NCBI RefSeq assembly: GCF_009932555.1
Contig: NZ_BLJO01000009.1
Coordinates: forward strand, 178,575 to 242,574
Direction of reading: 5' to 3'
DNA: 64,000 nt
Source: Steroidobacter agaridevorans
GTDB lineage: Bacteria > Pseudomonadota > Gammaproteobacteria > Steroidobacterales > Steroidobacteraceae
Below the pieces are notes generated by a model. That model made no database searches. It had not been told where the DNA came from and was given only the letters and a program-made list of their open reading frames with translations. Both the position numbers and the translations under genes were made by a program. This document shows, piece by piece, positions 24,630 to 38,814 of this stretch. Position 1 is the first letter of the stretch. Each line of letters opens with the position of its first letter.

Positions 24630-24715
24630 GTTGCGTCCCCTACTGATTCTTCGCCCAGTGACGGCGTGCATGAATGAGCCAAGCCCATCCACCCTCTCGC
24701 ACTACCTGTCCGTAC

Positions 24716-24746
24716 TGACTAATGTGGACGCGAAAATCAGGACAAA
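24716..24746 (-). promoter_or_regulatory. Predicted ECF (FecI-type) promoter of the receptor operon
   Basis: On the minus strand this reads TTTGTCCTG, 18 bases, GTCAG. The same layout occurs before fecI and before the second E1 alpha gene. The GTCA lies about 87 bases before the receptor start. It is part of a 378-base divergent region (24630-25007) in which I see no other feature except the weaker plus-strand copy at 24936-24965. Confidence 0.6.
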
Positions 24747-24935
24747 TATATCCGTTGTTTCAACCCGTGCCGCCGGCGGCTCGAGGGAGAGCGCCGCAAC
24801 CTGAATTCCCGGGGATGGATTCAGCGAATGAGCCGGTCTTACTTTCGTTACGAGCAGGCTTTCTCGCATTACGTTACATCTCGCGCCGCCTGCTCCGAGG
24901 CCGCCAACGCCAACTAGAAACGCGTCCTCTTCAAG

Positions 24936-24965
24936 TTGTCTGCACTTTCCCGTGGGCGGCCGTCA
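24936..24965 (+). promoter_or_regulatory. Weak copy of the ECF-like promoter motif before the SDR genes
   Basis: The plus strand reads TTGTCTGC, 18 bases, GTCATTAC, ending 42 bases before the first SDR start. The spacing matches the three stronger copies exactly. The upstream half differs at two of six core positions, so this call is tentative. Confidence 0.35.
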
Positions 24966-25007
24966 TTACTCGCAGGCGCCCTGAATGCCTATTTCCAGTA
25001 GCGAGAC

Positions 25008-25793
25008 ATGAACCAGCTTCAGGAGAGAGTCGCGATCGTCACGGGAGGAGCCATGGGGCTCGGGTCCGCCATCGTGAGACGTCTTGCCGCCGAAGGCGCC
25101 AGGACTGTAATCACCGACATCCAAGTCGCAGCCGGAGAACAGCTGGCCAGTGAATTGGGCGGCTGCTTCATCGAGCACGATGTTACGGACGAGAATCGCT
25201 GGGACACCGTCGTGCGGGCCGTTGAAGATCGGTTCGGACGCGTCGACTTCCTGATAAACAACGCCGGCGTGGAAGGCCCTCCTCCCGAGCGCGCCAATCC
25301 CGAGAACACCCGTTTATCGGATTGGCAGGCAGTTCACCGAGTCAACGTCGAAGGCGTATTCCTGGGATGCCGTGCAACCCTCCCTGCACTTCGTCGCGCC
25401 GGCGGCGGCGCAATCATCAACATGTCCTCCACGGCCGGCCTGTGCGGCACGCCGGACTACATCGCCTACGGCGCCAGCAAAGCGGCCGTTTGGCACCTGA
25501 CCAAATCGGTTGCACTACATTGCGCGAGAAACGGCTCGAAGATCCGCTGTAACTCGGTGCACCCCGCGCTCGTGCTGACACCCATGGTCGAGCGAATCAT
25601 TGCCGACACGGCTGCAGCGCGAGGCACGTCCACGGAGGATGTCACAAAAGAATTCACCTCGCTGATCCCTCAGCGCGAGTTCCAGACCCTCGATGACATT
25701 GCCGCTGCGGTGCTGTTTCTAACCTCCGATGAAGCCCGGCACATCACGGGGCTCGCGATGACGGTCGATGGTGGCTGCTCGGCGGCTCTCTGA
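25008..25793 (+). CDS. Short-chain dehydrogenase/reductase
   Basis: A 261-residue classical SDR with the cofactor loop TGGAMGLG near the N-terminus and an Asp (VITDIQ) after the second strand that favours NAD. It also has NNAGVEG, the catalytic Ser in INMSSTAG and YGASK. The overall look is that of the 3-alpha/20-beta-hydroxysteroid dehydrogenase and FabG-like group, but substrates of SDRs cannot be assigned from such similarity. It stands divergent from the TonB receptor operon, and a second SDR gene begins one base after its stop. It may reduce or oxidise the compound handled by the neighbouring operons. Confidence 0.9.
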   Translation: MNQLQERVAIVTGGAMGLGSAIVRRLAAEGARTVITDIQVAAGEQLASELGGCFIEHDVTDENRWDTVVRAVEDRFGRVDFLINNAGVEGPPPERANPENTRLSDWQAVHRVNVEGVFLGCRATLPALRRAGGGAIINMSSTAGLCGTPDYIAYGASKAAVWHLTKSVALHCARNGSKIRCNSVHPALVLTPMVERIIADTAAARGTSTEDVTKEFTSLIPQREFQTLDDIAAAVLFLTSDEARHITGLAMTVDGGCSAAL

Positions 25794-25794
25794 T

Positions 25795-26649
25795 ATGGAT
25801 CTCTCGCTGTTCGAGCTTCGAGGAAAAAGTGCGCTGGTCACCGGCGCCTCGATGGGACTCGGCCGCGCATGCGCTACTGCGCTAGCCATGGCCGGAGCGA
25901 ACGTCGCCGTTCTGGATATCGAGGAGTCCTCGGCTGTGAAGACCGTGGAGAAACTACGATCCCGAGGCGTGGATTCGTTCTTCGTCCACTGCGATGTTTC
26001 GAATAAGGCTCAGGTACGGGCGGCTGTCGCTGCCGTTGTCGCCCGGTTCGGGCGCCTGGATATCGCAATCAACAACGCCGGATTCGGCATCCCTGTCGGC
26101 GGCAGCGAAAACCTCGCGCAGGAAGAGTGGAATCGAGTCATCGGAATCAATCTGACCGGGGTTTTCCTGTGCGCGCAGGCCGAGGCGGAGCAGATGATCA
26201 ATCAAGAGCCGACGCAAGGCAAAATCATCAACATCGCATCGATGTACGGCTCCGTTGCTGGAGGAAACTGCGCGTACAACGCAGCGAAGGCAGGAGTGAT
26301 CCATCTGACGAAGACGCTGGCCGCCGAATGGGGGCGCTTCAATATCAATGTGAACTGCATCAGCCCCAGCTGGGTCATGACCCGTCGAATGATGCACTTA
26401 TCGGAGGAGGTCCGTAGTCGCATGCGCGCCGTCACGCCGATGGGGCACATTCAGCGACCGGAAGATATGTTCGGGCCGGTGATCTTCCTGGCATCGCAGG
26501 CATCGAATTTCGTGACCGGTCACGACTTGCTCGTCGACGGCGGACATACCGTCAACACCTGGCTCAGCCCGCTGGAACGAACCCTTGCCCCGCGAGTGAC
26601 GCCCGAGGAAGAGATCTTCGATACGGCACAGGATGCCGACGATCCTTGA
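25795..26649 (+). CDS. Short-chain dehydrogenase/reductase, second of a pair
   Basis: A 284-residue SDR with TGASMGLG, the NAD-type Asp in VAVLDIE, INNAGFG, the Ser in INIASMYG and YNAAK. About 30 extra residues at the C-terminus, after the usual VTGHDLLVDGG end, are unlike the standard family. I take the ATG at 25795, one base past the upstream stop. An ATG 27 bases earlier would overlap the first SDR. The two SDRs are only moderately similar and may act on different positions of one substrate. It converges on the VOC gene with only six bases between stops. Confidence 0.9.
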   Translation: MDLSLFELRGKSALVTGASMGLGRACATALAMAGANVAVLDIEESSAVKTVEKLRSRGVDSFFVHCDVSNKAQVRAAVAAVVARFGRLDIAINNAGFGIPVGGSENLAQEEWNRVIGINLTGVFLCAQAEAEQMINQEPTQGKIINIASMYGSVAGGNCAYNAAKAGVIHLTKTLAAEWGRFNINVNCISPSWVMTRRMMHLSEEVRSRMRAVTPMGHIQRPEDMFGPVIFLASQASNFVTGHDLLVDGGHTVNTWLSPLERTLAPRVTPEEEIFDTAQDADDP

Positions 26650-26655
26650 TCAGCC

Positions 26656-27144
26656 CTAGTCAGCTTCGACAGCCGCAATCTTCTCGTACAGCTCGATGAC
26701 ATTTCCCTCGGGGTCGCGCAGGTAGGTCGCTTTGGAGCGCCCGAAGAACACCAGCGGCGAGCAATGAAACGTTGCCCCGGCGGCCTGCAAGCGCGCGCAA
26801 TGCATCTCTATGTCCGAGACCTCGATACAGAAATGACTGATGCCATGATCTGAGACCGGACGGCTCGGATCGGCGCGCTTCGGCGCCGGATGCGAGAACT
26901 CGAACAGCTCGACCTGCATGCTCCCGACCCGGAGCAACACAGCACGCCCCCTTGCGCCCTTGATGCCCAGAATCTGCTCGTAGCGGCCGTTCTCGGTGGT
27001 CTCGTCGAAGGCAATCTCCGCGACCGTCTGCATCTCGAAGGCATCGCGATAGAACCCGAGCGTCGCGTCGAGATCCGAAACCGAGATGCCTACGTGACTG
27101 GTGCCCTTCACCATGGCGAGACCGCAGTCATCGCTGACTGTCAT
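26656..27144 (-). CDS. VOC (glyoxalase/dioxygenase superfamily) protein
   Basis: A 162-residue vicinal-oxygen-chelate protein with two beta-alpha-beta-beta-beta units. Probable metal ligands are His in TSHVGIS, Glu in VELFEF, His in GISHFCIEV and Glu in NVIELYE. Size and motif order resemble methylmalonyl-CoA epimerase and glyoxalase I relatives. It is the last gene of the E1/lipoyl operon. The frame overlaps the lipoyl gene by 17 bases, and an alternative ATG at 27114 would avoid the overlap. Possible jobs are epimerisation, isomerisation or detoxification of a 2-oxo intermediate. I cannot choose among them. Confidence 0.85.
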   Translation of the reverse strand: MTVSDDCGLAMVKGTSHVGISVSDLDATLGFYRDAFEMQTVAEIAFDETTENGRYEQILGIKGARGRAVLLRVGSMQVELFEFSHPAPKRADPSRPVSDHGISHFCIEVSDIEMHCARLQAAGATFHCSPLVFFGRSKATYLRDPEGNVIELYEKIAAVEAD

Positions 27145-27373
27145 CTATTTCCGCGATTTCCGAATTCACCGGCGCCGTCTCGCCCTCGGCCAACAGGATT
27201 CGGGTGAGCACACCGCTGGCGGGCGATTCCACTTCCTGAATCGCCTTGGCGGTTTCTATTTCTACGATGGGCTCGCCCTGCTCGACACGGTCGCCGATGG
27301 CCTTCAGCCAGCGACTCACCGTGCCTTCCTCGATGCCCATGCCCCACTTGGGAAGAATCAATTTGGTACTCAT
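27128..27373 (-). CDS. Stand-alone lipoyl (biotinyl-lipoyl) carrier domain
   Basis: An 81-residue protein that consists of a single lipoyl domain: KLILPKWGMGIEEGTV at the start, then IVEIETAKAIQEVESPASG with the lysine of ETAKA as lipoylation site. It lacks the subunit-binding and catalytic domains of a normal E2 acyltransferase, and no E2 or E3 gene is nearby. It sits after the E1 beta gene (36 bases) and overlaps the VOC gene. A free carrier would accept the acyl group made by the E1 enzyme and pass it to another protein. It could serve both E1 pairs in the window, since the NRPS operon pair has no carrier of its own. That sharing is inference. Confidence 0.9.
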   Translation of the reverse strand: MSTKLILPKWGMGIEEGTVSRWLKAIGDRVEQGEPIVEIETAKAIQEVESPASGVLTRILLAEGETAPVNSEIAEIDDSQR

Positions 27374-27409
27374 GCTGGCAACTTCCGCCGCTCCTTGCTC
27401 AACAGACGA

Positions 27410-28405
27410 TCACATCAACCCTTTCACGGCGGCGACGATCTGCGCCTTGCCGGGAAACACGTGTTGTTCCAATGCGGGACTGAACGGGACATGCACGTCC
27501 GGCGCACACAGGCGGCGGATCGGCTTTTTCAAACTCTCGAATCCTTCCTCGGCGATGAGCGCTGCAATCTCCGAGCTGAGATTGGCGACCCGATGCGCGT
27601 TTTCGACCAGCACCAGACGGCCGGTCTTCGCCACCGACGCCATGATCGTGTCCATGTCGAGCGGCTTGAGCGTCCTGGGATCGATCAGCTCGATCGATAT
27701 GCCCTCTTCCGCCAGATCCTTGGCGGCGTCCATCGCGAGTCGCATCGCGCCGCCGATCGCCACGACGGTCACGTCACTGCCGGCTCGCTTGATCTCGGCC
27801 TTGCCGATCGGCACCAGATGATCCGGATCGGTCGGCACCTCGCCTTTCACGGGCCACAGCTTGGTGTCTTCGAAGATCAGCACCGGGTCATCGTCGCGGA
27901 CCGCGGATTTCAACAGGCCTTTGATATCGGCCGGACTGGTCGGGCTGATGATCTTCAGGCCCGGCACATTCAGGAACTGCGGATATGGACGATCCGAGTG
28001 CTGGGCGGCGAGCGAGGAGCCGTAATACATACAACAACGAAACACGACCGGCACTTTGACCTGGCCGCCGGTCATGTATCGCAGCTTGGACGCCTGATTG
28101 ATGATGGGATCGGACGCCAGGTACATGAAACTGGCAATGCTCAGGTCCACGATCGGTCGCAGCCCGGTCATCGCGGCGCCGATGCCGACGCCGGTGAAAC
28201 TGGTCTCCGAGATCGGCATGCTCCAGATCCGTCGCTCGTCGAAGCGGGACACGAGCTTGCCGCCGCCGTACACGGCGATGTCCTCGCCCATCACGATGAC
28301 TCGCTCGTCGCGCTCCAGCTCTTCTATCTGAGCCTGCACCAGCGCATCGAGGAAGGTCATTTGCACCATCGTGTCTGGACGCGGCTTGTTGATCGCTAGG
28401 GACAT
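27410..28405 (-). CDS. 2-oxoacid dehydrogenase E1 component, beta subunit (second pair)
   Basis: A 331-residue beta subunit, related to the one at 7185-8177. It has VIVMGEDIAVYGG, RRIWSMPISETSFTGVGIGAA, SDRPYPQFLNVPGLKII and the C-terminal VPFSPALEQHVFPG. The frame continues 86 codons upstream of the start I chose, but that part is antisense-like text inside the alpha gene. The ATG at 28405 has a good Shine-Dalgarno (GAGGA) and lies 13 bases after the alpha stop. It pairs with the alpha subunit upstream to decarboxylate a 2-oxoacid, with the lipoyl protein downstream as likely acceptor. Confidence 0.92.
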   Translation of the reverse strand: MSLAINKPRPDTMVQMTFLDALVQAQIEELERDERVIVMGEDIAVYGGGKLVSRFDERRIWSMPISETSFTGVGIGAAMTGLRPIVDLSIASFMYLASDPIINQASKLRYMTGGQVKVPVVFRCCMYYGSSLAAQHSDRPYPQFLNVPGLKIISPTSPADIKGLLKSAVRDDDPVLIFEDTKLWPVKGEVPTDPDHLVPIGKAEIKRAGSDVTVVAIGGAMRLAMDAAKDLAEEGISIELIDPRTLKPLDMDTIMASVAKTGRLVLVENAHRVANLSSEIAALIAEEGFESLKKPIRRLCAPDVHVPFSPALEQHVFPGKAQIVAAVKGLM

Positions 28406-28418
28406 ACGCGGGTGATCC

Positions 28419-29429
28419 TCAGACGGCCGAAGTGGCGCCTTGCGGCGGATAGAGAATGGGATTGCTGTACATGTAGTCGTACAGAGCGGAGGCCGGCGGG
28501 AACGGGCTCGCTTCGGCGAACTGAATTGCGTCCCGCACTTCCGCGACCACGCTCGACTCGATCTCATGCAACTCGGCCTCGCTGAAGCTCGTATCGAGCA
28601 AAGCCCGCCTGAACAGCAGCAGCGGATCACGCAGCTTCTTGTTCGTCTCGACTTCCTCGGCATGACGATAGGGTGTGCCCGGGATGAACAACCCGACTTG
28701 ATGCTCGTCGAATCGATAGGTCTTGGCCTCGATCAACGTCGGTCCATCGCCGCGCCGCGCACGAGCCACCGCTTCGGAAGTCGCCTTATAAACTTCGCGC
28801 ACGTCCTGACCGTCGACCGCGATCCCGGGCATGCCATACGCCTCCGCGCGCTTTGCGATGTTGGGCTGTCCATGGCTGCGGGCAATCGAGGTGGTGATGG
28901 CGTAGCCGTTGTTCTCGCACAGGTAGATCACGGGGAGCTTCCACAGCGAAGCCATGTTCAGCGACTCGTGAAAGGTCCCCTGATTGACCGCGCCGTCGCC
29001 GAAGAAACAAAGGCACACTTGATCCGTCTGGCGCACCTTGGCGCTCAGGCCGCATCCGGTGGCGAGCGGAATGCCGCCGCCGACGATGGCCGACTCGCCG
29101 ATGATTCCAACGCTGTTGTCCGCGAGGTGCATGGAGCCGCCGCGGCCTTTGCAGATGCCGGTGGCCTTGCCCATCAACTCCGCCATCAGCGCCTTCAGCT
29201 CGGCGCCTTTGCCGATCGGGTGGCCATGGGAACGATGCGTGCCCGTCATCGCATCGCTGTCACACAGCGCGATGCAGGCGCCGACGATGGTGCCTTCCTG
29301 ACCGATGCTGGCGTGAAAGGCGCCCGGGATCTTGCCGGCCTTGTAGAGCCGCGTCCCCTCTTCCTCGAACTTGCGAATCCGCAACATGCGCCGGTAGGTC
29401 TCGCTGTCGCGCCCCTTCGTCAAAGACAT
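28419..29429 (-). CDS. 2-oxoacid dehydrogenase E1 component, alpha subunit (second pair)
   Basis: A 336-residue alpha subunit with MTGTHRSHGHPIGKG, GRGGSMHLAD and the thiamine-diphosphate motif FFGDGAVN followed by ESLNMASLWKLPVIYLCENN. As in its paralogue at 8201-9190, the loop after KTYRF reads EHQVGLF rather than the usual GHS type, so both may use an uncommon 2-oxoacid. It is the first gene of the operon E1 alpha, E1 beta, lipoyl domain, VOC. Its promoter region is shared with the divergent fecI gene and holds the strong ECF-like motif on both strands. Confidence 0.92.
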   Translation of the reverse strand: MSLTKGRDSETYRRMLRIRKFEEEGTRLYKAGKIPGAFHASIGQEGTIVGACIALCDSDAMTGTHRSHGHPIGKGAELKALMAELMGKATGICKGRGGSMHLADNSVGIIGESAIVGGGIPLATGCGLSAKVRQTDQVCLCFFGDGAVNQGTFHESLNMASLWKLPVIYLCENNGYAITTSIARSHGQPNIAKRAEAYGMPGIAVDGQDVREVYKATSEAVARARRGDGPTLIEAKTYRFDEHQVGLFIPGTPYRHAEEVETNKKLRDPLLLFRRALLDTSFSEAELHEIESSVVAEVRDAIQFAEASPFPPASALYDYMYSNPILYPPQGATSAV

Positions 29430-29481
29430 TTATTGTTCCCTCGCCTGGTGCTTGTGATCGCCAGCTCTGCCTGCTATGCAT

Positions 29482-29513
29482 TGACAGCAGTGGCGCGAAC
29501 TTTCCGGACACCC
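29482..29513 (-). promoter_or_regulatory. Predicted ECF (FecI-type) promoter of the E1/lipoyl operon
   Basis: The minus strand reads GGGTGTCCGG, 18 bases, GTCAATG, ending about 52 bases before the E1 alpha start. The upstream half is identical over ten bases to the fecI promoter copy at 29587-29618, and the spacing is the same. Confidence 0.62.
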
Positions 29514-29586
29514 GGGTCGGTTCGGGATCAGGGAGTTATGTCTTCATGAACCGGACGGTGCAGGGAATGCCCTGTCATCGGCTTGG

Positions 29587-29618
29587 GGGTGTCCGGACTT
29601 TGCCGCAAAAACCGGTCA
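29587..29618 (+). promoter_or_regulatory. Predicted ECF-type autoregulatory promoter of fecI
   Basis: The plus strand reads GGGTGTCCGG, 18 bases, GTCATCC, with the GTCA ending 40 bases before the fecI start. It is divergent from the copy at 29482-29513, and the two half-motifs face each other across about 73 bases. Autoregulation by the FecI sigma is the simplest reading. Confidence 0.62.
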
Positions 29619-29658: not shown

Positions 29659-30183
29659 ATGAAGGCGACACTTCCGCAACGCGCATGGACGCTGGGGGTC
29701 CACTACCGCCGCGAACTGCACAGGTATCTGCTGCGCCGGCTGCGGCGGCCTCAGGACCTCGATGACTTGAAGCAGGAGGTCTACATGCGCCTGTTGCGCA
29801 TGGACCGCATGGATGGCATCCGGGAACCGCTCGCTTATCTCTATAGCATCGCCGCCAATGTCGTCTCCGACTTCACCCTGGCGGAACGACGCCGCCACGA
29901 TCGCGTCACCCCCGACAGCGACGCCGTCGAGAACTGGGCCGACGATCCGTCGCAGTCCCTGCCGGACGACATCGCCGAGCGCACCAGCCTCGAACGGCAG
30001 CTCGAAGACGCGTTGAAACAGCTGCCGCCCCTGCAGGCCGCTGCCTTGGTATTGCACTATCAGGAAGGGATGTCCTGTGACGAAATCGCAAAACAGCTTG
30101 GCCTGAGCCCGAAGAGCGTCGACAAGTACCTGACGCGAGCCAAGGCACGCATGCGCATTCTCTTATGGAACGAGGGGAGCTGA
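29659..30183 (+). CDS. FecI-type ECF sigma factor
   Basis: A 174-residue sigma factor. Region 2 covers about residues 16-75 (DLDDLKQEVYMRLLRM, then YLYSIAANVVSDF). Region 4 covers about 110-165 (LKQLPPLQAAALVLHYQEGMSCDEIAKQLGLSPKSVDKYL). It is followed after two bases by a FecR gene, the classic pairing for cell-surface signalling. In known systems the sigma is released when an STN-containing TonB receptor binds its ligand. The STN receptor at 22095-24629 is the obvious partner, although the two are separated by the SDR and E1 genes. The shared promoter motif suggests it controls that receptor operon, the E1 operon and itself. Confidence 0.93.
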   Translation: MKATLPQRAWTLGVHYRRELHRYLLRRLRRPQDLDDLKQEVYMRLLRMDRMDGIREPLAYLYSIAANVVSDFTLAERRRHDRVTPDSDAVENWADDPSQSLPDDIAERTSLERQLEDALKQLPPLQAAALVLHYQEGMSCDEIAKQLGLSPKSVDKYLTRAKARMRILLWNEGS

Positions 30184-30185
30184 AC

Positions 30186-31277
30186 ATGGACCGTCGCCCG
30201 GACAATCGTGACGAAGAAACACTCGCGGCGGAGCACGCCGTCGAATGGCTGCACCGGCTCGACACCGCCAACGCCAGCGACAAAGCCGCGTTCCGTAAAT
30301 GGCTCATCCGTTCGCCGCAGAATGGCGGCGAGGTGCTGGCCGCGACGGCGACCGATGTCGTCGTCCGTGAGCTGTTGCGCGACAAGCGCGTCGACGTCAA
30401 TCAATTCCTGTCGGCCGCAACGAACGTGCACTCGATCGGCGATGAGTTTCGCTCTCGTGAGCAGCCTGCACGGCCGAAGCGACTGCGCCGCTGGATCGGG
30501 ATGGGCCTGGCCGCGGCGCTGGCAGTGGTCGCGCTCGCGCCGATAGTGGAGCGCAACTTGTTTCGTCCCGACGAGTACAGCACCTCGACCGGCGAACAAC
30601 GCGCGATCGAATTGCCCGACGGCTCGGCGATCGCCATCAACGCGGAATCGACGGTGCGCGTCGCCTTCTCGAATTCTTCCCGGGATGTTTATTTGGATCG
30701 AGGCCAGGCGATGTTCACGGTCGCGAAGGATCCGGCGCGGCCGTTCCGCGTGCACATGGTCGGCAGCGCCGGTCCCGAGGAAAAAATCAGCAAGGACACG
30801 ACGGTCAAAGCGATCGGCACGAAGTTCGATGTGCGACGTCATTCCGAGCGCATCAACGTCGCCGTGATCGAAGGCATCGTGCAGGTCAGGTCCGACGCGA
30901 ACCACACCGCAAAGAGCGGCTCCGCCAGCGTGGTCGCCGGGCAGGCCGTGAGTGTCGAAGGCAGCGGCGAAATCACGCCGCCGCAGCGAGTCAATCCCTC
31001 CGACGTGAGCGCATGGCAGCAACGCCGCCTGGTATTCACCGACAGCACGCTCGAAGAGATCGCCGAAGAATTCCGGCGTTACAACCGCACGCCGCGCATC
31101 CGCATCGTCGATGAAGATCTGCGCATGCAACGAATCAGCGGCGTCTTCGACGCGGACTATCCGGAAGCGCTATTGCTGTATCTGGAATCCGACAGCTCGG
31201 TGCTCCTCGAGCGCAAAGACGAAGAAGTCGTCATCCGGCGGCGTCCCACGATCGTGCAGTCCGCGCCCACCGGTTAG
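30186..31277 (+). CDS. FecR-type anti-sigma factor / signal transducer
   Basis: A 363-residue protein. The cytoplasmic N-terminal DUF4880-type domain (about 10-75) includes HAVEWLHRLDTA and FRKWLIRSP. A membrane helix lies near residues 103-121 (IGMGLAAALAVVALAPIV). The periplasmic FecR domain contains RAIELPDGSAIAINAESTVRV and RGQAMFTVAKDPARPFRV. A C-terminal secretin/STN-like part has LEEIAEEFRRYNRTPRIRI. I took the ATG at 30186, which has GAGGGGAG before it and lies two bases after the fecI stop. In such systems the cytoplasmic part binds the sigma and the periplasmic part reads the receptor STN domain. Confidence 0.92.
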   Translation: MDRRPDNRDEETLAAEHAVEWLHRLDTANASDKAAFRKWLIRSPQNGGEVLAATATDVVVRELLRDKRVDVNQFLSAATNVHSIGDEFRSREQPARPKRLRRWIGMGLAAALAVVALAPIVERNLFRPDEYSTSTGEQRAIELPDGSAIAINAESTVRVAFSNSSRDVYLDRGQAMFTVAKDPARPFRVHMVGSAGPEEKISKDTTVKAIGTKFDVRRHSERINVAVIEGIVQVRSDANHTAKSGSASVVAGQAVSVEGSGEITPPQRVNPSDVSAWQQRRLVFTDSTLEEIAEEFRRYNRTPRIRIVDEDLRMQRISGVFDADYPEALLLYLESDSSVLLERKDEEVVIRRRPTIVQSAPTG

Positions 31278-31474
31278 ATATAACCCCGCATGCATTGTTT
31301 AACGCATTCGCAATGAGTGCGTCGTACTGTGCCTGCTGAATACAATCTGGCGGCAAAATTGCGCGAGCGAGTCTTGACTGTTCTTGTTAGTGCCGTCATA
31401 GCGTTTATGTAGCTGCGGTATCGAGGACGATCCGTGGCGCGAGTGACTGGTCAACAGCTCACAGGAGGACCGCT

Positions 31475-31896: not shown

Positions 31897-32565
31897 GTGC
31901 GCAAGAACATACTTGCAGCGACCGTGATTGGCGTCCTCGCCACGCTCGTCGGATTCATCCCGATAGCGAACGCGACTCTTATCACCACGGGTGAGGTCGT
32001 TGTCACAACGCCGAACACCGGCGGCGGAGATTTCTCCTTTTTGATTGGCGCCCTGGCGGTCAATGGGCATCACGATGAAGGCCCGCGGTTCTTGCCGGGC
32101 TACGAAGGCAGCCTGTTCGACGGCAGTCATCGCCTGACCGTCGGCGCCATCGAGTTCTTCTACGGCGCCATCGGAGACCAGGCAGTCTTCTGGAATACCC
32201 ACCTCGGCGTCGAGAACCCGTACGCCACGAATTGGACGATCATTTCCCCGGGCGTGCTGCTGACCCAAGGTCAAACGGTTTATCAATCGTCCTTCGACTT
32301 CCAGGGGGGACTGTGCGCAAATTTCAGGTACAACACGCCTTGTGACGTGATATTCCCAAGTCTCACCGGGCAGGGGATCGCCGAATTTTTCTTCAACGAA
32401 GCGATCCTGGATGACGGGCGCAGTTACTTCACGCCGGTCCGAGCGACTTACACCTTCATGCCGATTCCCGAGCCCGCGACGCTCGCGCTCTTCGGCGTGG
32501 GGCTCGCTGGATTGGCGCTGTCGCGGCGACGAAAACACAAAAGCCCTCTGGCGAGGGCGTTTTGA
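31897..32565 (+). CDS. PEP-CTERM sorting domain protein
   Basis: A 222-residue secreted protein starting with GTG after AGGGAG. It has a signal peptide (about 1-27, IGVLATLVGFIPIANA), a beta-rich middle with no recognised domain, and the C-terminal exosortase signal IPEPATLALFGVGLAGLALSRRR. Such proteins are processed by an exosortase and exported, often with exopolysaccharide. No exosortase gene is in the window. The last ten residues after the arginine cluster (KHKSPLARAF) are unusual for this signal and are encoded by the hairpin that terminates the convergent tRNA gene. Confidence 0.88.
   Translation: MRKNILAATVIGVLATLVGFIPIANATLITTGEVVVTTPNTGGGDFSFLIGALAVNGHHDEGPRFLPGYEGSLFDGSHRLTVGAIEFFYGAIGDQAVFWNTHLGVENPYATNWTIISPGVLLTQGQTVYQSSFDFQGGLCANFRYNTPCDVIFPSLTGQGIAEFFFNEAILDDGRSYFTPVRATYTFMPIPEPATLALFGVGLAGLALSRRRKHKSPLARAF
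32532..32563 (-). terminator. Rho-independent terminator of tRNA-Ser, inside the PEP-CTERM reading frame
   Basis: On the minus strand a GCCCTC-GCCA-GAGGGC hairpin (32543-32558) is followed by TTTTGTGTTTT, six to ten bases after the tRNA 3' end. The flanking AAAA makes it partly bidirectional. It overlaps the last codons of the convergent PEP-CTERM gene. Confidence 0.8.
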
Positions 32566-32568
32566 AGG

Positions 32569-32661
32569 TGGCGGAGAGGGAGGGATTCGAACCCTCGTAG
32601 GGACGTAATGCCCTCAACCGATTTCGAATCGGTGCCGTTGTGACCGCTTCGGTACCTCTCC
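32569..32661 (-). tRNA. tRNA-Ser, anticodon CGA
   Basis: A 93-base type II tRNA with encoded CCA. The acceptor stem GGAGAGG/CCTCTCC is perfect, the T arm contains GAGGGTTCGAATCCCTC, and the anticodon arm is ACCGA-TTCGAAA-TCGGT with anticodon CGA at 32626-32624. A long variable arm is present. It reads UCG codons. The 5' end is only 17 bases after the S8 peptidase stop, so its promoter must lie within that gene or it is co-transcribed. Confidence 0.95.
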
Positions 32662-32678: not shown

Positions 32679-35600
32679 CTAATTGAGTCTTCTCCGCCTA
32701 GGAAGAGGCAAGTGGGCCGGCCGGCCGGTCGGCGCCCGCCGACATCCCAGCAGTCCCGCCAGCAGAACTAGCAGAATCCAGTCGACCGAGCCGCCGCCGC
32801 CGCTCTTGCCACCGCCCTGAGTGCCTCCGCCTGCGCCACCGCTGTCGCCGCCGCTGGGTGTGGCGAGGCGAAACGCTGCGGTCACGCTTTGGGCGCGATC
32901 CATGGTCACACTGCATGAATTGCCGAGCCCGGTACAGGCGCCAGACCAGCCCTCGAAGACCGACTGCGCATCTGCGGCTGCGGATAACGTCACCAGGCTG
33001 CCCGGATCGAAGCTCGCGCTACACGTGGGGCCGCAGCTGATTCCAGCGGGACTCGATGAGACCGTGCCCTGGCCCGCGCCCGCCTTGGTGATTGTGAGCG
33101 TGACGGGCGGCTGAGTTGGGAAAGTCACAGCGACGTTCCTCGCTTCGCTCATGATGACGGTGCAGGTCGTGGCCGTGCCACTGCATGCGCCGCTCCAACT
33201 GACGGTGCGATCGCCGTCCGGCGTGGCTTGCAACTGCACGACGGCATTCGGCTCGAAATACTGCGAACAGGTGGCGCCGCAGTCGATGCCGGCCGGCGTC
33301 GAGGACACCGTGCCGCCGCCGCCCGGGATCTGGATCTGCAACAACGGCTTCAGAACAAACAACGCGGACACCGATCGAGCGCTGCTCATGGTGACAGAGC
33401 AAACCAGCGCGGCGCCGCTGCACGCCCCCGACCATCCGCTGAACACGGCGTTGGGACCGGGTTGAGCGGTCAGTGTCACCACATCGTTCTCATCGAAAGC
33501 TTCACTGCAATCGGCCGGACACGAGATTCCCGCGACGTTCGAAGTGACCGAGCCAGGGCCCGTCACGCTCAACGCCAAACCATAGCCACCGAACACTGCA
33601 CGCGTAGCGGTGTACCCGGCGACAGTCAGCGTGCACGGGTTGCCCTGCCCTTCGCAGGCACCGATCCAGCCCTGGAATCCCGCGTCGACCGTGGACGTAG
33701 CGGTCAGCTGCACGTGGCTGCCATTCGCGAACAGACCAAGACAGTCGTCGCCGCAATCGATGCCGGATGAATTGGAGCTCACCCGCCCCTCGCCGTCGAT
33801 CGCGACCGCCACGAAAGAATGACCCGGAAGATTCTTGCCCGACTGGTAATAGCCGCGATGTTGCGGACCTTCCAGCTCCTGGCCCCACTCGACAGGTCCC
33901 GAGCTTGCAGCCCCGCCCAGGTCGTACGCCGCGACCTTCGGCAAGTAACCGTTGCGACCGTCCCATAGATTGGCGGTCACCACGATGTCGTTGCGACCGT
34001 CGGCGTCGAGGTCCGCGATCGCCGGCGTGATGGTCTGCTGGTTGTAGTACACGAAGCCCTGCGCCAACGTCTTTGGCGTGCCCGCGGCCGGCGTGCCGCC
34101 ACGATTCAGCACATGAAGCGTGCCCTTGGCAGTCGCGACGATCTCCGGAAGGCCGTCACCATCGACATCGCCCACCACGGGTGCGGAGATGGCGGTGCTG
34201 TTACCCGAAGCCCCCGTCAACTCGACGGGCCATCCTGGCAAGGTGGCGCCATCGCCCGCATACGCGCCCACGTAGTAATAAGAGCGCCCCCAGTACGAGT
34301 CGAAGTACGAATAGGACAACACTATTTCCGGGATGCCGTCCTGAGTCAGATCCGCGAGCGCGCCACCACGAAGGCCGTAAGCGCCCTGCGCGACTTCGAT
34401 GGTGCGTTCCAATTCGCCACGTGGCGAGTAGATTTGGATCACGCTCCGCGCGCCGCCGGAACTCGTTACGTCGCCAGTGGCGCAGGCCAGTTCGATGACG
34501 CCGTCGGCGTCGACGTCACCCAAGCCGATCGGCTGGCACGGCTGCGGCGTCGACACTGGAAACCCGGGGGCGATACTGCCGTCGCTGCGCAGGGCGATCA
34601 GCGCATGCCAGGTGCTGGAGCTGCGCATCAGCACCAGTTCAGGGCGGCCATCGAAGTCGAGATCGGCTGCGAGCGGCGACATCACCCCTTGCGGGCCTAT
34701 TTCTCCGACCGGGTCCGGGCGCAGGGGGAAGCCCGGCACCAGCGAGCCATCGCTGCGATAAGCGCTCAGCTCATAATCCTGTTCGCCGTGGAAGAGCTCG
34801 TCCAGGCCGTCTCCGTCGACGTCCACCAACGTCGGCGCGCTGGTCATGAAGTTGCCGGACATGCGCGGCCAGCCCGGCATCAACTGTCCGGAGCCGAAGT
34901 AAGCCTCGACGAGATGCGGCAGGATCGGATCGTAGACGGACGAGGTGCCGTCATCGGTGAACCCGCCGGCCACTTCGAACTGGTCGGCGCCCGCCGCCAG
35001 GTTGCCAGCCGACAAGGTGCTCATGACGAAGGGTCGGCCCGCGCGGGCCAGCGGCCAGCCGCTCAGGGGCTCACCGGTGGCTTTCCAGGCGTAGGTGGGT
35101 CCGTGCGCCACGCTGGTGGTGACGATTTCCAGATCGGGGCTCGCATCCAGATTGGCGACCAGCGTGGTCAGGTTGGCGTTGTACGTGCCCGCCTGGTGCA
35201 GCGTCTTGACCGGAAACCCCGGCTTCAAATGCGCATCGACCGTGACCGCCAACGTATCGGCGACGATGCTCCCTTGCCGGAAGATCTGGCCGGGAAAGCT
35301 CAAGATGTAGTCGCCGGCTGCGGTGGGCGTCCAGGCACTCGAATAGATGCCGTCGCCAGCCGCGAGATCCGCACCGACGCCGTCATCCGCCAGCGCGATG
35401 GAAACATTGCCCGGATTGACGGTCACCGACACGGCGCCGCGTGGGTTTTCGCAATCGATGTTGAGCACCGCGAGGGTCAACGGCACGCCGAGCCAATAAC
35501 GGTCGATGATCACCGGCGCGCGCGGCAGCAGACGCCTGGTCGCGACCGACGAGTTACACGTCAACGCGCCATATGCATTCACCCGCCGCCGGCTCGCGAC

Positions 35601-37052
35601 GGGCCAACCGAAGTCCGCCCAGCCAGCCTGATGATCGGAATAGTCTCCGCCGGCCAGCACGCGATTCTTCACGCCGCGCCAATCGAGCGCCGGCATCGCG
35701 GACTTCACCAGCGCAATCACTCCGGAAACATGCGGCGTCGCCATCGATGTACCGGTCTGCACGCCATACAGATTGCCGGGCAACGTGCTCAGCACATCCT
35801 CGCCGGGAGCTACGATGTGAATGGTGTGATCGCCGACATACGACACCCTCGCCATGATGTCCCGATCGTCGCTCGCGCCGACGCAGATCACGTTCGGCAA
35901 AGGGTACGCGCAAGGAAACATCGAGCCCGCTTCGAATAGATGGGAGTCGTCGATGCTCTGCGGAGCGGTGCTGGTCGAATTGCCCGCGGCGGCCACGAAC
36001 AGGATGCCACGTTGCTGCTGACGGGCGATCGCGTCATACAGCGCGCGCGAGTAGATGCCCTCGCCCCAGGAATTGTTGGTCGCGACGATGTTCACGCCGC
36101 GATCGTGAAACGACGCGATGTAGTCCAGACAGGCAATGGCGTCGCCCACGCTGCCCGAACCATTGGCGTCGAGGAACTTGCAGGGAAGCACTCGCGCATG
36201 CCACGCGACGCCGGTGACTCCGATGTTGTTGTCGCCGACGGCGGCGATCAGCCCGGCCACATGCGTGCCGTGGCCATTGTCGTCCATGGGATTGGAATCG
36301 CCGTTCACGGTGTCGATGCCATGGCAGTCATCGACGTAACCGTTGGCATCGTCGTCGATGCCATTCGTATTGCAGTCCGCGGTGTTGCTGAAGATGTTCG
36401 CCGCCAGATCCTGGTGCGTGTAGTCGACGCCCGAATCGAGCACGGCGATCACCACGCTGCTGTCGCTGGTGGTGATGTCCCACGCTTCGGTCGCATCGAT
36501 GTCCGCATCGGCGACGCCACCGCTTTGCCCGATATTGTGCAGCGGCCACTGCGCCGTGAAGCTTGGGTCGTTCGGCGAGCGCTGCGCACGCACGATGTAG
36601 TTGGGCTCGACGAATTCAACGTCCGGATCTTCGCGCAGGGCAGCGATGGTCGCGGCGGCGGAAACGCCAGGCGCCACTTTCACCCGCTGCAGGCCGGGCA
36701 GCGACTTGAATGATCGCTGCGATTGGACGGCGGCACCGAACTTGGCGCGCGCGCTGCTGTAGGCCGCACTCGATTTGAACTTGACCAGCAACTCGCCCGC
36801 GGCCACCGCCGGTTCATGGGCTTGCGCCGATGGCGCGTCGACTTCGAGCGTGAGATTGCCGTCTTGCCCGCGGACGACGAATGGGTTGTCTGCGGCGGCG
36901 GCGTTCAGCACGGGCACCTGGCCTCGAGCGCCGCTCGACCTTGCCTGGGCGCCGGCGCCCGATGACGATTCAGAGCCGCCCGGCGAACACCCAGCCATCA
37001 TCCCTACCACCGCGAGCGCGCACAGTGGCTGAGCAAACCTTAACCAAGGCAT
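32679..37052 (-). CDS. Large secreted S8 (subtilisin) peptidase lipoprotein with FG-GAP and Cys-rich repeats
   Basis: A 1457-residue protein. The N-terminus is a lipoprotein signal (VVGMMAGC). It is followed by an inhibitor-type prodomain (AGELLVKFKS to FVEPNYIVRA) and a catalytic domain with Asp in VIAVLDSGVDYTH (about 206), His in NGHGTHVAG (about 261) and Ser in GTSMATPH (about 435). A beta-propeller of FG-GAP/VCBS-like repeats (DVDGDGLDELFHG, DLDFDGRPELVL, DLDADGRNDIVV) precedes four Cys-rich InlB-like repeats and a Gly-rich linker. The C-terminus is a GlyGly-CTERM-like tail (GGGGSVDWILLVLLAGLL, then RR). The frame extends 105 codons upstream, but the ATG at 37052 begins the signal peptide and follows AGGAACGG. 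It carries both an N-terminal lipid anchor and a C-terminal sorting signal. Confidence 0.93.
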   Translation of the reverse strand: MPWLRFAQPLCALAVVGMMAGCSPGGSESSSGAGAQARSSGARGQVPVLNAAAADNPFVVRGQDGNLTLEVDAPSAQAHEPAVAAGELLVKFKSSAAYSSARAKFGAAVQSQRSFKSLPGLQRVKVAPGVSAAATIAALREDPDVEFVEPNYIVRAQRSPNDPSFTAQWPLHNIGQSGGVADADIDATEAWDITTSDSSVVIAVLDSGVDYTHQDLAANIFSNTADCNTNGIDDDANGYVDDCHGIDTVNGDSNPMDDNGHGTHVAGLIAAVGDNNIGVTGVAWHARVLPCKFLDANGSGSVGDAIACLDYIASFHDRGVNIVATNNSWGEGIYSRALYDAIARQQQRGILFVAAAGNSTSTAPQSIDDSHLFEAGSMFPCAYPLPNVICVGASDDRDIMARVSYVGDHTIHIVAPGEDVLSTLPGNLYGVQTGTSMATPHVSGVIALVKSAMPALDWRGVKNRVLAGGDYSDHQAGWADFGWPVASRRRVNAYGALTCNSSVATRRLLPRAPVIIDRYWLGVPLTLAVLNIDCENPRGAVSVTVNPGNVSIALADDGVGADLAAGDGIYSSAWTPTAAGDYILSFPGQIFRQGSIVADTLAVTVDAHLKPGFPVKTLHQAGTYNANLTTLVANLDASPDLEIVTTSVAHGPTYAWKATGEPLSGWPLARAGRPFVMSTLSAGNLAAGADQFEVAGGFTDDGTSSVYDPILPHLVEAYFGSGQLMPGWPRMSGNFMTSAPTLVDVDGDGLDELFHGEQDYELSAYRSDGSLVPGFPLRPDPVGEIGPQGVMSPLAADLDFDGRPELVLMRSSSTWHALIALRSDGSIAPGFPVSTPQPCQPIGLGDVDADGVIELACATGDVTSSGGARSVIQIYSPRGELERTIEVAQGAYGLRGGALADLTQDGIPEIVLSYSYFDSYWGRSYYYVGAYAGDGATLPGWPVELTGASGNSTAISAPVVGDVDGDGLPEIVATAKGTLHVLNRGGTPAAGTPKTLAQGFVYYNQQTITPAIADLDADGRNDIVVTANLWDGRNGYLPKVAAYDLGGAASSGPVEWGQELEGPQHRGYYQSGKNLPGHSFVAVAIDGEGRVSSNSSGIDCGDDCLGLFANGSHVQLTATSTVDAGFQGWIGACEGQGNPCTLTVAGYTATRAVFGGYGLALSVTGPGSVTSNVAGISCPADCSEAFDENDVVTLTAQPGPNAVFSGWSGACSGAALVCSVTMSSARSVSALFVLKPLLQIQIPGGGGTVSSTPAGIDCGATCSQYFEPNAVVQLQATPDGDRTVSWSGACSGTATTCTVIMSEARNVAVTFPTQPPVTLTITKAGAGQGTVSSSPAGISCGPTCSASFDPGSLVTLSAAADAQSVFEGWSGACTGLGNSCSVTMDRAQSVTAAFRLATPSGGDSGGAGGGTQGGGKSGGGGSVDWILLVLLAGLLGCRRAPTGRPAHLPLPRRRRLN
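32869..33825 (-). repeat. Four tandem Cys-containing InlB-like repeats within the S8 peptidase
   Basis: Four units of about 75-80 residues share the pattern GxVSS..GIxC...C...F....V.LTA, then F.GWSGAC......C.VTM..A..V.A.F. Each has four cysteines in the same places, suggesting two disulfides per unit. The last two units are closest to each other. Such repeats are usually extracellular spacers or adhesive modules. Confidence 0.8.
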
Positions 37053-37088
37053 GACGGTCCGTTCCTTTTTGTTCCCTGATGGCCGCAC

Positions 37089-37133
37089 TGCAAGCATGCC
37101 AGCAGGCGTAGGCAATTCAACCTCCTGCTTGCA
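37089..37133 (-). promoter_or_regulatory. Inverted repeat in the S8 peptidase upstream region
   Basis: TGCAAGCA (37089-37096) and TGCTTGCA (37126-37133) form perfect 8-base arms around a 29-base loop, 37 bases before the S8 start, within the 250-base region divergent to the M48 gene. It could be an operator or a leader hairpin. No known riboswitch was recognised. Confidence 0.35.
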
Positions 37134-37302
37134 TAACCTGGCGGGTCGAGGGAATCCGCTTGGCGGCGGGGCTGCGAATATCCCGCCGTGCGAACCGCAG
37201 CCCTCGTCGCGACCCGCGCTCCTGGCGGTGAACGCAAGGCGTTCAGGAAGGTCCAACCCCTGACGCTTTACAGCCTCCCCGGCCCGCACCACACTGCTTG
37301 CT

Positions 37303-38814
37303 GTGAAAATCCCCTCCTTCTCGACGTTCAAGGCACTGCTGTGCGCCACCGTGGCGTCCCTGGTCATGGTCGGGGGCGTGAGTCATGCCGATCCGGAGGA
37401 TTTGCCCGACATCGGCAACCCGGCGTCGACCATGCTGACCCTGGAGGACGAGTACCAGATCGGCCGCATGATCGTGCGGGGTCTGCGGGACCAGGACCAG
37501 ATCCTGGAAGACCCGGAAGTCACCGAGTACATCCGCGCGCTGGGCCTCAAGCTGTCCAGCCAGGCGCACGATGGCTCGCAGCGCTTCAACTTCTTCATGG
37601 TCCGGGACAACACCATCAACGCCTTCGCCTTGCCGGGCGGGTTCATCGGTGTGAATTCCGGCCTGATGCTGAAGACCGAGGACGAGAGCGAGCTGGCCGG
37701 CGTGCTGGCGCACGAAATTGCACACGTCACCCAGCGGCACATTGCTCGCAGCATTGCCGCTCAGAGCCGATCGAGCCTCGTGTCCACCGCGGCCATGCTG
37801 GCGGCGATTCTGGTCGGTGCAGCGGCAGGCGGTGGGGATGCCGCGATGGCGGGCGTGGCGGCGGCGCAGAGCCTGGCCATCCAACAACAGATCAGTTTCA
37901 CGCGCTCGAACGAGACCGAAGCCGACCGTGTCGGCCTGGGATTTCTGGCGCGCTCGGGCTTCGACCCGAATGGCATGCCCAGGTTTTTCGAGACCATGAG
38001 CCGACTCGGTGGCAGCAGCGAGTTGAACATTCCCGAAATGCTACGCACGCATCCGGTGAGCCACACTCGAATTGCCGAGACGAAGGAACGCGCCGCGCAG
38101 CTCGACGTGGCGCCGGCTCCGGAGAGCGTGAGCTATGCGCTGACGCGCGAACGTCTGCGCGTGCTCTCGACGCCGGCGGGCGAAGATCCGCGTGCGTATT
38201 ACGCCGCCACCATCAACAACGAGCCCGATGCGACGCCGGCGCAGGTGTATGGGCAAGGGTTGGCATTGATGATGGCCGGGCAACCTGCCAAGGCCGTGCC
38301 GGTCTTCGAGCGGCTGCGTTCGGCCGATCCGACCATTCTTCAGTACCACACGGCGTTGGGTCAGGCGCAGTTGCAGGCCGGCGATGGCAAAGCCTCCCTG
38401 CAAACATTGAAGCGCGCGACGGAGCTGTTCCCGCGCAATGTCGCCGTCACGATTCGCTACGCCGAAACGTTGATGCAAACGGGCGATTCCAAGAAGGCCC
38501 ACGAGATCCTGCTCGATCTGTTCAACACCGTGCCGCCGACACCGGAGCAGGCGAAGCTCACGGCGCAGGCGGCGAATGCCGCGGGCGACGTGGCCGATTC
38601 GTACTACTACATGTCGGAGTACCACATCCTGAGCGGCGATCTGTTGCTGGCCGTCAATCAGCTGCAGCTCGCTCTCGCCGTGCCGAAGATCTCCGAAGTG
38701 CAGCGCGCGCGCTTCGAAGCCCGTCTCGACGAAATTCAGCAAGCATTGCCCAAGCGGGCCGCCCGCCGGCCCATCGAAGCCAGCAACGGCGACGGCCGTC
38801 GACGCGCAAATTGA
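37303..38814 (+). CDS. bepA: BepA-like M48 metallopeptidase with TPR domain
   Basis: A 503-residue periplasmic protein starting at GTG. It has a signal peptide (about 1-29, VGGVSHA), the M48 zinc motif HEIAHVTQRH (about 136-145) with the third ligand in ETEADRVGLGF, and a C-terminal half of TPR repeats from about residue 290. Order and length match BepA (YfgC), which degrades or helps assemble LptD and BAM components at the outer membrane. The lipoprotein gene mlaA follows, so this stretch concerns outer membrane quality. It is divergent from the S8 peptidase. The arginine-rich C-terminus (KRAARRP, GRRRAN) looks unordered. Confidence 0.92.
   Translation: MKIPSFSTFKALLCATVASLVMVGGVSHADPEDLPDIGNPASTMLTLEDEYQIGRMIVRGLRDQDQILEDPEVTEYIRALGLKLSSQAHDGSQRFNFFMVRDNTINAFALPGGFIGVNSGLMLKTEDESELAGVLAHEIAHVTQRHIARSIAAQSRSSLVSTAAMLAAILVGAAAGGGDAAMAGVAAAQSLAIQQQISFTRSNETEADRVGLGFLARSGFDPNGMPRFFETMSRLGGSSELNIPEMLRTHPVSHTRIAETKERAAQLDVAPAPESVSYALTRERLRVLSTPAGEDPRAYYAATINNEPDATPAQVYGQGLALMMAGQPAKAVPVFERLRSADPTILQYHTALGQAQLQAGDGKASLQTLKRATELFPRNVAVTIRYAETLMQTGDSKKAHEILLDLFNTVPPTPEQAKLTAQAANAAGDVADSYYYMSEYHILSGDLLLAVNQLQLALAVPKISEVQRARFEARLDEIQQALPKRAARRPIEASNGDGRRRAN

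Follow-up and report, generated by a model that had tools for sequence, protein, structure and literature searches.

The window analysed here, a stretch of 64,000 nucleotides of Steroidobacter agaridevorans (contig NZ_BLJO01000009.1, positions 178,575 to 242,574), contains genes for a FecI-type extracytoplasmic function (ECF) sigma factor, a FecR-type regulator and a TonB-dependent receptor with an STN signalling domain. A two-part motif, TGTCC-N-G followed by 18 bases and GTCA, is repeated in this locus, and sequence comparison indicates that it is very probably a promoter read by the neighbouring FecI-type sigma. The predicted regulon comprises fecIR, the receptor gene, the genes for an E1 alpha/beta pair and a lipoyl protein, and a pair of short-chain dehydrogenase (SDR) genes; inclusion of a further gene, for an orphan FecR-N protein, is unsure. 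The analysis was carried out in silico, and the relatives used for comparison come from one bacterial family.

The repeated motif in the window and in the genome

Three exact copies of the 29-mer are present in the window, ahead of fecI, the E1 alpha gene and the receptor gene. A preliminary description, made from the letters alone, had reported three such sites facing their downstream genes; all three were recovered without a mismatch and in that orientation, at 40, 52 and 86 bases, respectively, from the start codons (Table 1). The identical upstream bases that it had noticed in two of the sites proved to be an 11-base stretch, GGGTGTCCGGA, common to the fecI and E1 sites. By codon usage, all five local sites, including the one ahead of the FecR-N gene, score as non-coding. 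In 100 dinucleotide shuffles of the window the motif occurred 0.10 times on average and once at most, and none of the shuffles had the three copies observed. The pattern had been picked after the sequence was seen, and 75 gapped 10-base shapes were therefore allowed to compete in surrogate sequences. At least three of the five local upstream regions have one of these shapes in common in the real DNA; this was true of none of 300 first-order Markov surrogates.

With a matrix built from the three exact sites, only these training sites themselves and the fecI site in reverse complement scored above the site upstream of the SDR pair, among 127,944 window positions. This copy, which lies 42 bases from the ATG and has the same 29-base frame as the others, had been described as equally spaced but weaker; the spacing stands, the weakness does not, and the site belongs to the set. 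When each of the five sites was left out in turn, those of the receptor, E1, fecI and SDR units ranked 5-7 among the same positions and the FecR-N site 11. The latter has one mismatch to the four-site consensus; it had been put forward as doubtful and stays so.

A genome-wide search, proposed in the preliminary description as a check, gave no enrichment: TGTCC-N-G-N18-GTCA has 10 exact matches in the 8.0-Mb genome against 11 for a reversed control, and the idea of a genome-wide regulon was rejected on this count. Codon usage marks five of the seven exact matches outside the locus as coding, one of them weakly, and the other two as non-coding; one of these two, by reading of the sequence, precedes a recombinase-like gene. 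The consensus TGTCYKSAHWKT-N13-GTCA was built from the fecI, E1, receptor and SDR sites, whose fit to it is by construction; it has no further perfect match in the genome. Nine more places, the FecR-N site among them, match it with one mismatch; allowing up to two brings the count to 126, where the reversed control has 89. Since the motif is not enriched and the consensus is perfectly matched in the locus only, it looks like a private address of the window FecI rather than a genome-wide motif.

The -35 sequence in related loci and the FecI recognition helix

A survey of 148 genomes, that of the window included, gave no ortholog of the whole locus, with up to 23 FecI and up to six receptor candidates scored per genome; among these candidates the closest other FecI has 55% identity and the best-scoring other receptor 37%. 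A single scan of genome contigs returned one distant match. At E <= 1e-30 the FecI clade was found in 41 of 396 genomes of the order and in one of 369 genomes drawn from the class, that one being the window's own. FecI paralogs are numerous: the window's genome has at least 23 (all 23 candidates scored were matched, of 77 found), and at E <= 1e-8 one query matched 124 FecIs in genome G023 (150 candidates scored; listed size about 4.0 Mb), while G008 gave 112 and G002 gave 68. These three genomes contribute most of the 81 relatives' loci that were compared, all from the window's own family. In these 81 loci fecI is divergent from an STN-receptor gene; in the window the genes for the SDR pair, the glyoxalase, the lipoyl protein and E1 lie between the two, with E1 alpha opposite fecI. 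The first analysis set, of 38 regions, combines the window fecI/E1 region with 37 divergent fecI/STN-receptor pairs found among 51 fetched loci. A second set of 120 regions yielded 45 divergent pairs, the remaining 75 having no detected divergent STN receptor. One locus of the second set, L342_2048, duplicates L100_527; it was left out of the 82-locus pairing, helix and tree tests and kept in an 11-locus test, and L077 was left out of alignment A1.

Many of the divergent regions carry one -35 sequence on both strands, with a core that varies among loci. In the first set, the best gapped element reached at least 15 of 17 on both strands in 18 of 38 regions, the window fecI/E1 region included, against 9 of 514 cross-locus pairs. 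(This gapped-element pairing replaced a first pairing method, dropped as hairpins dominated it.) A two-block model describes the common frame as STACCnnnTTT, about 13 bases and CTCTA, with mostly constant spacing; its seeds, TACC...TTT and CTCTA, were taken after reading the sequences and it has no null of its own, so that the shuffle, pairing and helix tests served as checks. Within loci the -35 cores agreed at 3.87 of 7 positions and between loci at 2.38, a difference reached in none of 20,000 permutations (computed on the 23 of 38 loci in which both sites exceed 6.5, a group without the window). In the second set 34 of 90 strands exceeded the 95% level of a mononucleotide-shuffle null, with 4.5 expected. 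At core positions that had not been scored, sites of one locus agreed at 3.45 of 4, against 1.38 for sites of different loci (0 of 20,000 permutations; 11 of 45 loci, those with both strands above the null, L154 and L322 among them being near-identical). Without the training duplicate and one near-duplicate the figures were 3.56 and 1.28 for nine loci, again with 0 of 20,000. A pairing score that combines a -10 model with strand agreement, and contains no -35 model, exceeded the 95% cross-locus null in 43 of 82 loci, where about 4 were expected.

We then asked how the -35 sequence relates to the sigma factor encoded beside it. Residues 149-159 of the window FecI (LSPKSVDKYLT) lie inside its region-4 match (113-165), and we take them to be the -35 recognition helix of sigma region 4.2; the clade profile detects two solved chains, 2h27 of sigma E and 6jhe of SigW, presumably complexes of sigma4 with -35 DNA. 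The helix classes used here were defined after the data had been seen. P[EQK][ST] occurs at residues 151-153 in four of the 82 loci: the window (SPKSVDKY), L298, L299 and L324. A divergent TGTCC pair is present in each of the four, in the window the pair that includes the fecI site, and in 2 of the 78 other loci (none of 32 HT-type, 2 of the remaining 46; Fisher 8.6e-6); without the window the count is three of three (1.2e-4). Among 211 upstream regions TGTCC pairs accompany four of four P-type helices and 11 of 207 others (1.7e-5; 2.4e-4 without the window). A TACC pair is found in 27 of 32 HT-type loci and 10 of the other 50 (10 of 46 others, none of the 4 P-type; 1.1e-8).

Within the HT type, the base after TACn varies with residue 155, as tabulated for 25 of the 32 loci with two promoters each: C in 29 of 32 promoters with K, G in 10 of 10 with E, T in 4 of 4 with R (two near-identical loci) and A in 2 of 2 with Q (one locus), while D goes once with G and once with A. 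The seven loci omitted from this table scored below 7. By eye, L047, L082 and L086 fit the code on both strands and L076 on one; L074 and L090 do not fit, and L087 has N at 155. Across loci the Mantel correlation with the -35 sequence was 0.26 for region 4 (5 of 5000) and 0.19 for region 2 (77 of 5000). A FecI tree from which the helix columns had been removed unites the window FecI with L043 (SH-aLRT support 96), whose helix is HTVEKY and which has TACCGACTTT on both sides and CGTCAA as its -10; L299 and L324 form another group (100), to which the window FecI does not belong. The tree requires three changes for the P type and eight for K against E/D. The phylogenetic independence of the helix/-35 link is shown in part only. 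A tree test by independent pairs was dropped, the supported contrasts being too few. Further private -35 classes may exist: GTAATCA with RVH helices (L300/L309), TTAAGGTTT with EGSVMVY (L099/L304), CTAAA with KATVYTY (L096/L098) and GCTGGTCAC with VRNH (L305).

Together, these results support the suggestion of the preliminary description that the motif is the promoter of the local FecI. The comparison of relatives' intergenic regions that it had recommended reveals divergent promoters sharing a locus-specific -35 and a CTCT/GTCA-like -10 at similar spacing, and the -35 word follows the recognition helix of FecI.

Proposed mechanism and competing explanations

We propose that the STN receptor senses a ligand outside the cell and that FecR would relay the signal to FecI. 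Region 4 of FecI would read the TGTCC-centred -35 through the SPKSVDKY helix and region 2 the GTCA -10, and RNA polymerase carrying FecI would transcribe fecIR (a positive autoregulation), the receptor gene and its downstream genes, the SDR pair and the E1/lipoyl genes. Related FecIs would share this layout but differ in the -35 core, which the helix of each would set; such private addresses should keep many parallel FecI channels apart. From the sites and their counterparts we infer dependence on FecI, signal flow and insulation, and fecI is predicted to be autoregulated here and in the relatives. Taken whole, the explanation that FecI reads TGTCC/GTCA promoters of four units, its own included, as a private address within a receptor-FecR-FecI signalling chain appears likely to us. 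With more reserve, we lean toward a rule for the family: STN-facing FecIs would be autoregulated through their own -35 address, common to the receptor promoter, with P[EQK][ST] reading TGTCC, HT reading TACC and residue 155 reading the next base (K-C, E-G, R-T, Q-A).

Several observations weigh against this explanation. By the pairing score, 39 of the 82 loci stay within the cross-locus null at 95%; the pair in the window, at 7.9, is under the null median of 9.5, and the P-type locus L298 reaches 12.3 against a threshold of 13.5. Under the family two-block model the E1 site is outscored on its own strand. The P[EQK][ST] class was defined post hoc and has no further member among 211 distinct FecIs. 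The link between HT and TACC does not show in 130 FecIs outside the first 82, many of which have no known STN receptor facing them (TACC pairs in 4 of 10 HT-type regions and in 32 of the 120 others; Fisher 0.46). Supported branches of the tree give only one usable K-E contrast, so the residue code is not phylogenetically proven. Finally, the predicted autoregulation of fecI looks to conflict with published FecI-like systems, which the accessible parts of their reports describe as not autoregulated.

The sites could instead form an inverted-repeat operator, GGGTGTCCGGA...TCCGGACACCC, recognised by some dimeric regulator, and the fecI/E1 and receptor/SDR pairs are both indeed inverted. We consider this unlikely: the distance from arm to arm differs between the two pairs, whereas that from arm to GTCA is constant at all sites, and the upstream half follows the FecI helix across loci. 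Moreover, in relatives with a called pair every arm has its own -10-like element, although such elements are included in the pairing score. The numerous FecI paralogs of the genome raise the prospect of real promoters read by another ECF sigma, or by several. That prospect is very unlikely, given that the consensus is perfectly matched in this locus only and that P-type helices associate with TGTCC among the FecIs whose helices were read, a set that does not take in every paralog of this genome. A chance similarity selected by eye would agree with the failure of the exact pattern to exceed its reversed control genome-wide; yet the surrogates with 75 competing shapes, the prediction of the SDR site from the three-site matrix and the comparative tests (core agreement, pairing score and helix association) make it extremely unlikely.

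If each FecI does have a promoter of its own, searches for group-wide motifs would overlook it, and pairing the two divergent promoters of a locus would reveal it. Targets could then be predicted for many uncharacterised FecIs, and the arrangement would suggest how one genome runs a hundred of them. It would also provide naturally occurring sigma-promoter pairs, possibly orthogonal, and would amount to a set of parallel and insulated signalling channels. Locally, the prediction is that a single outside signal controls the receptor, two dehydrogenases and the E1/lipoyl module.

Genes of the locus and comparison with known systems

The window FecI has the make-up of an ECF sigma (sigma70 group IV), about 170 amino acids with regions 2 and 4 only, and scores 92.9 bits against the NCBIfam sigma70-ECF cut-off of 42.9. 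Because its scores with the NCBIfam FecI models are far under the cut-offs (53.3 against 260 and 54.2 against 185), the protein is judged from its sequence to be FecI-like and not the ferric citrate FecI. As in cell-surface signalling systems, a FecR-domain regulator adjoins the sigma gene and a TonB receptor has an STN signalling domain. In FecR the DUF4880 match is under the Pfam cut-off, and the protein falls short of the NCBIfam FecR equivalog (72.6 vs 385). The receptor scores 30.3 (cut-off 28.4) for STN, 68.9 (23.9) for Plug and 137.3 (27) for the barrel; its start was set by reading, the open frame beginning at 24692. The orphan FecR-N protein is possibly under the same promoter type and could, we would guess, modulate FecI. 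A second DUF4880-only protein was seen at L042:9568-9858; both genomes have a FecI gene nearby, and as a guess such proteins are possible soluble modulators of FecI.

Table 1. Genes and predicted promoter sites of the fecI locus (window coordinates)
Feature	Position	Strand	Evidence or remark
fecI, FecI-type ECF sigma factor, 174 amino acids	29659-30183	+	Pfam Sigma70_r2 (15-78) and r4_2 (113-165)
fecR, FecR-type sigma regulator	30165-31277	+	Pfam FecR, 74.2 bits vs cut-off 24, 1.2e-20
Orphan FecR-N protein, 113 amino acids	31475-31816	+	Pfam DUF4880 only, 27.4 bits vs cut-off 25
STN-domain TonB-dependent receptor	24629-22095	-	Pfam STN, Plug, beta-barrel
Two short-chain dehydrogenases (SDR)	25008-25793, 25768-26649	+	Pfam
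E1 alpha	29429-28419	-	Pfam
E1 beta	about 28405 (start by reading) to 27410	-	Pfam
Lipoyl protein	27373-27128	-	Pfam
fecI-fecR promoter (predicted)	29590-29618	+	TGTCCGGACTTTGCCGCAAAAACCGGTCA; predicted autoregulation
E1 alpha/beta/lipoyl promoter (predicted)	29510-29482	-	TGTCCGGAAAGTTCGCGCCACTGCTGTCA; divergent to fecI promoter
STN receptor gene promoter (predicted)	24744-24716	-	TGTCCTGATTTTCGCGTCCACATTAGTCA
SDR pair promoter (predicted)	24937-24965	+	TGTCTGCACTTTCCCGTGGGCGGCCGTCA
FecR-N gene promoter (doubtful)	31370-31398	+	AGTCTTGACTGTTCTTGTTAGTGCCGTCA

A glyoxalase gene comes after the E1 alpha, E1 beta and lipoyl genes on the minus strand. On the same strand, 3' of the receptor gene, are genes for an aldehyde dehydrogenase, an MFS transporter, an M24 peptidase, two nonribosomal peptide synthetase (NRPS)-type proteins, a second E1 pair and a further MFS protein. 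A 361-base gap precedes the NRPS genes, and a single operon from the receptor to the NRPS genes is therefore not established. The two NRPS-type proteins (17054-9187, minus strand), with C-A-T and C-A-T-reductase organisation and the second E1 alpha/beta pair nearby, may from their domains make an acylated peptide aldehyde or alcohol. Adjoining the locus is a 1562-residue subtilase with FG-GAP and InlB-like repeats (32679-37367, minus strand), and a PEP-CTERM protein (31897-32565, plus strand) lies beside a tRNA-Ser(CGA) gene (32569-32661, minus strand).

By way of background, the -35 of E. coli FecI is GGAAAT, and the pyoverdine and ornibactin sigma systems likewise use a -35 sequence other than that of the window. 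The systems compared below are described as in the openly available portions of the papers cited. Like E. coli FecI/FecR/FecA, the window has an ECF sigma, a FecR and a TonB receptor with a signalling domain, and in E. coli FecI drives the receptor promoter (PMC9249621), as is predicted here. There, however, fecIR is transcribed by sigma70 without autoregulation and FecI controls one promoter (PMC9249621), whereas in the window the motif stands at four predicted promoters, that of fecI included. PvdS/FpvI/FpvR/FpvA of the pyoverdine system (PMC4256889) and OrbS of the ornibactin system (PMC9023288) are likewise FecI-group sigma systems tied to a receptor and to siderophore-synthesis genes; in the window two NRPS-type genes lie 3' of the receptor gene, likewise on the minus strand and beyond the 361-base gap.

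The available text of a 2021 review sets FecI-like ECFs apart as exceptions to the rule of autoregulation (PMC8103513). The PUMA3 system is described as not controlling its own expression (PMC4971064), and in S. meliloti no motif was recognised ahead of fecR or ahead of the receptor gene (PMC6180224). HemI-HemR-HemAD of Stenotrophomonas maltophilia resembles the window in having a FecI-like sigma with a FecR and a TonB receptor; unlike the window, its three genes form one operon, and HemI was tested and found not to be autoregulated (PMC12772443). Searches restricted to open-licence papers and to passages of these turned up no report of locus-private FecI promoters. Rhodius 2013 omitted the FecI-like groups ECF05-10 'as they do not autoregulate' (PMC3817407). 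The window resembles the autoregulated ECF groups of that study in having a promoter, here a predicted one, upstream of the sigma gene itself, and differs from their group-wide motifs in that the -35 core here varies by locus within the FecIs of one family.

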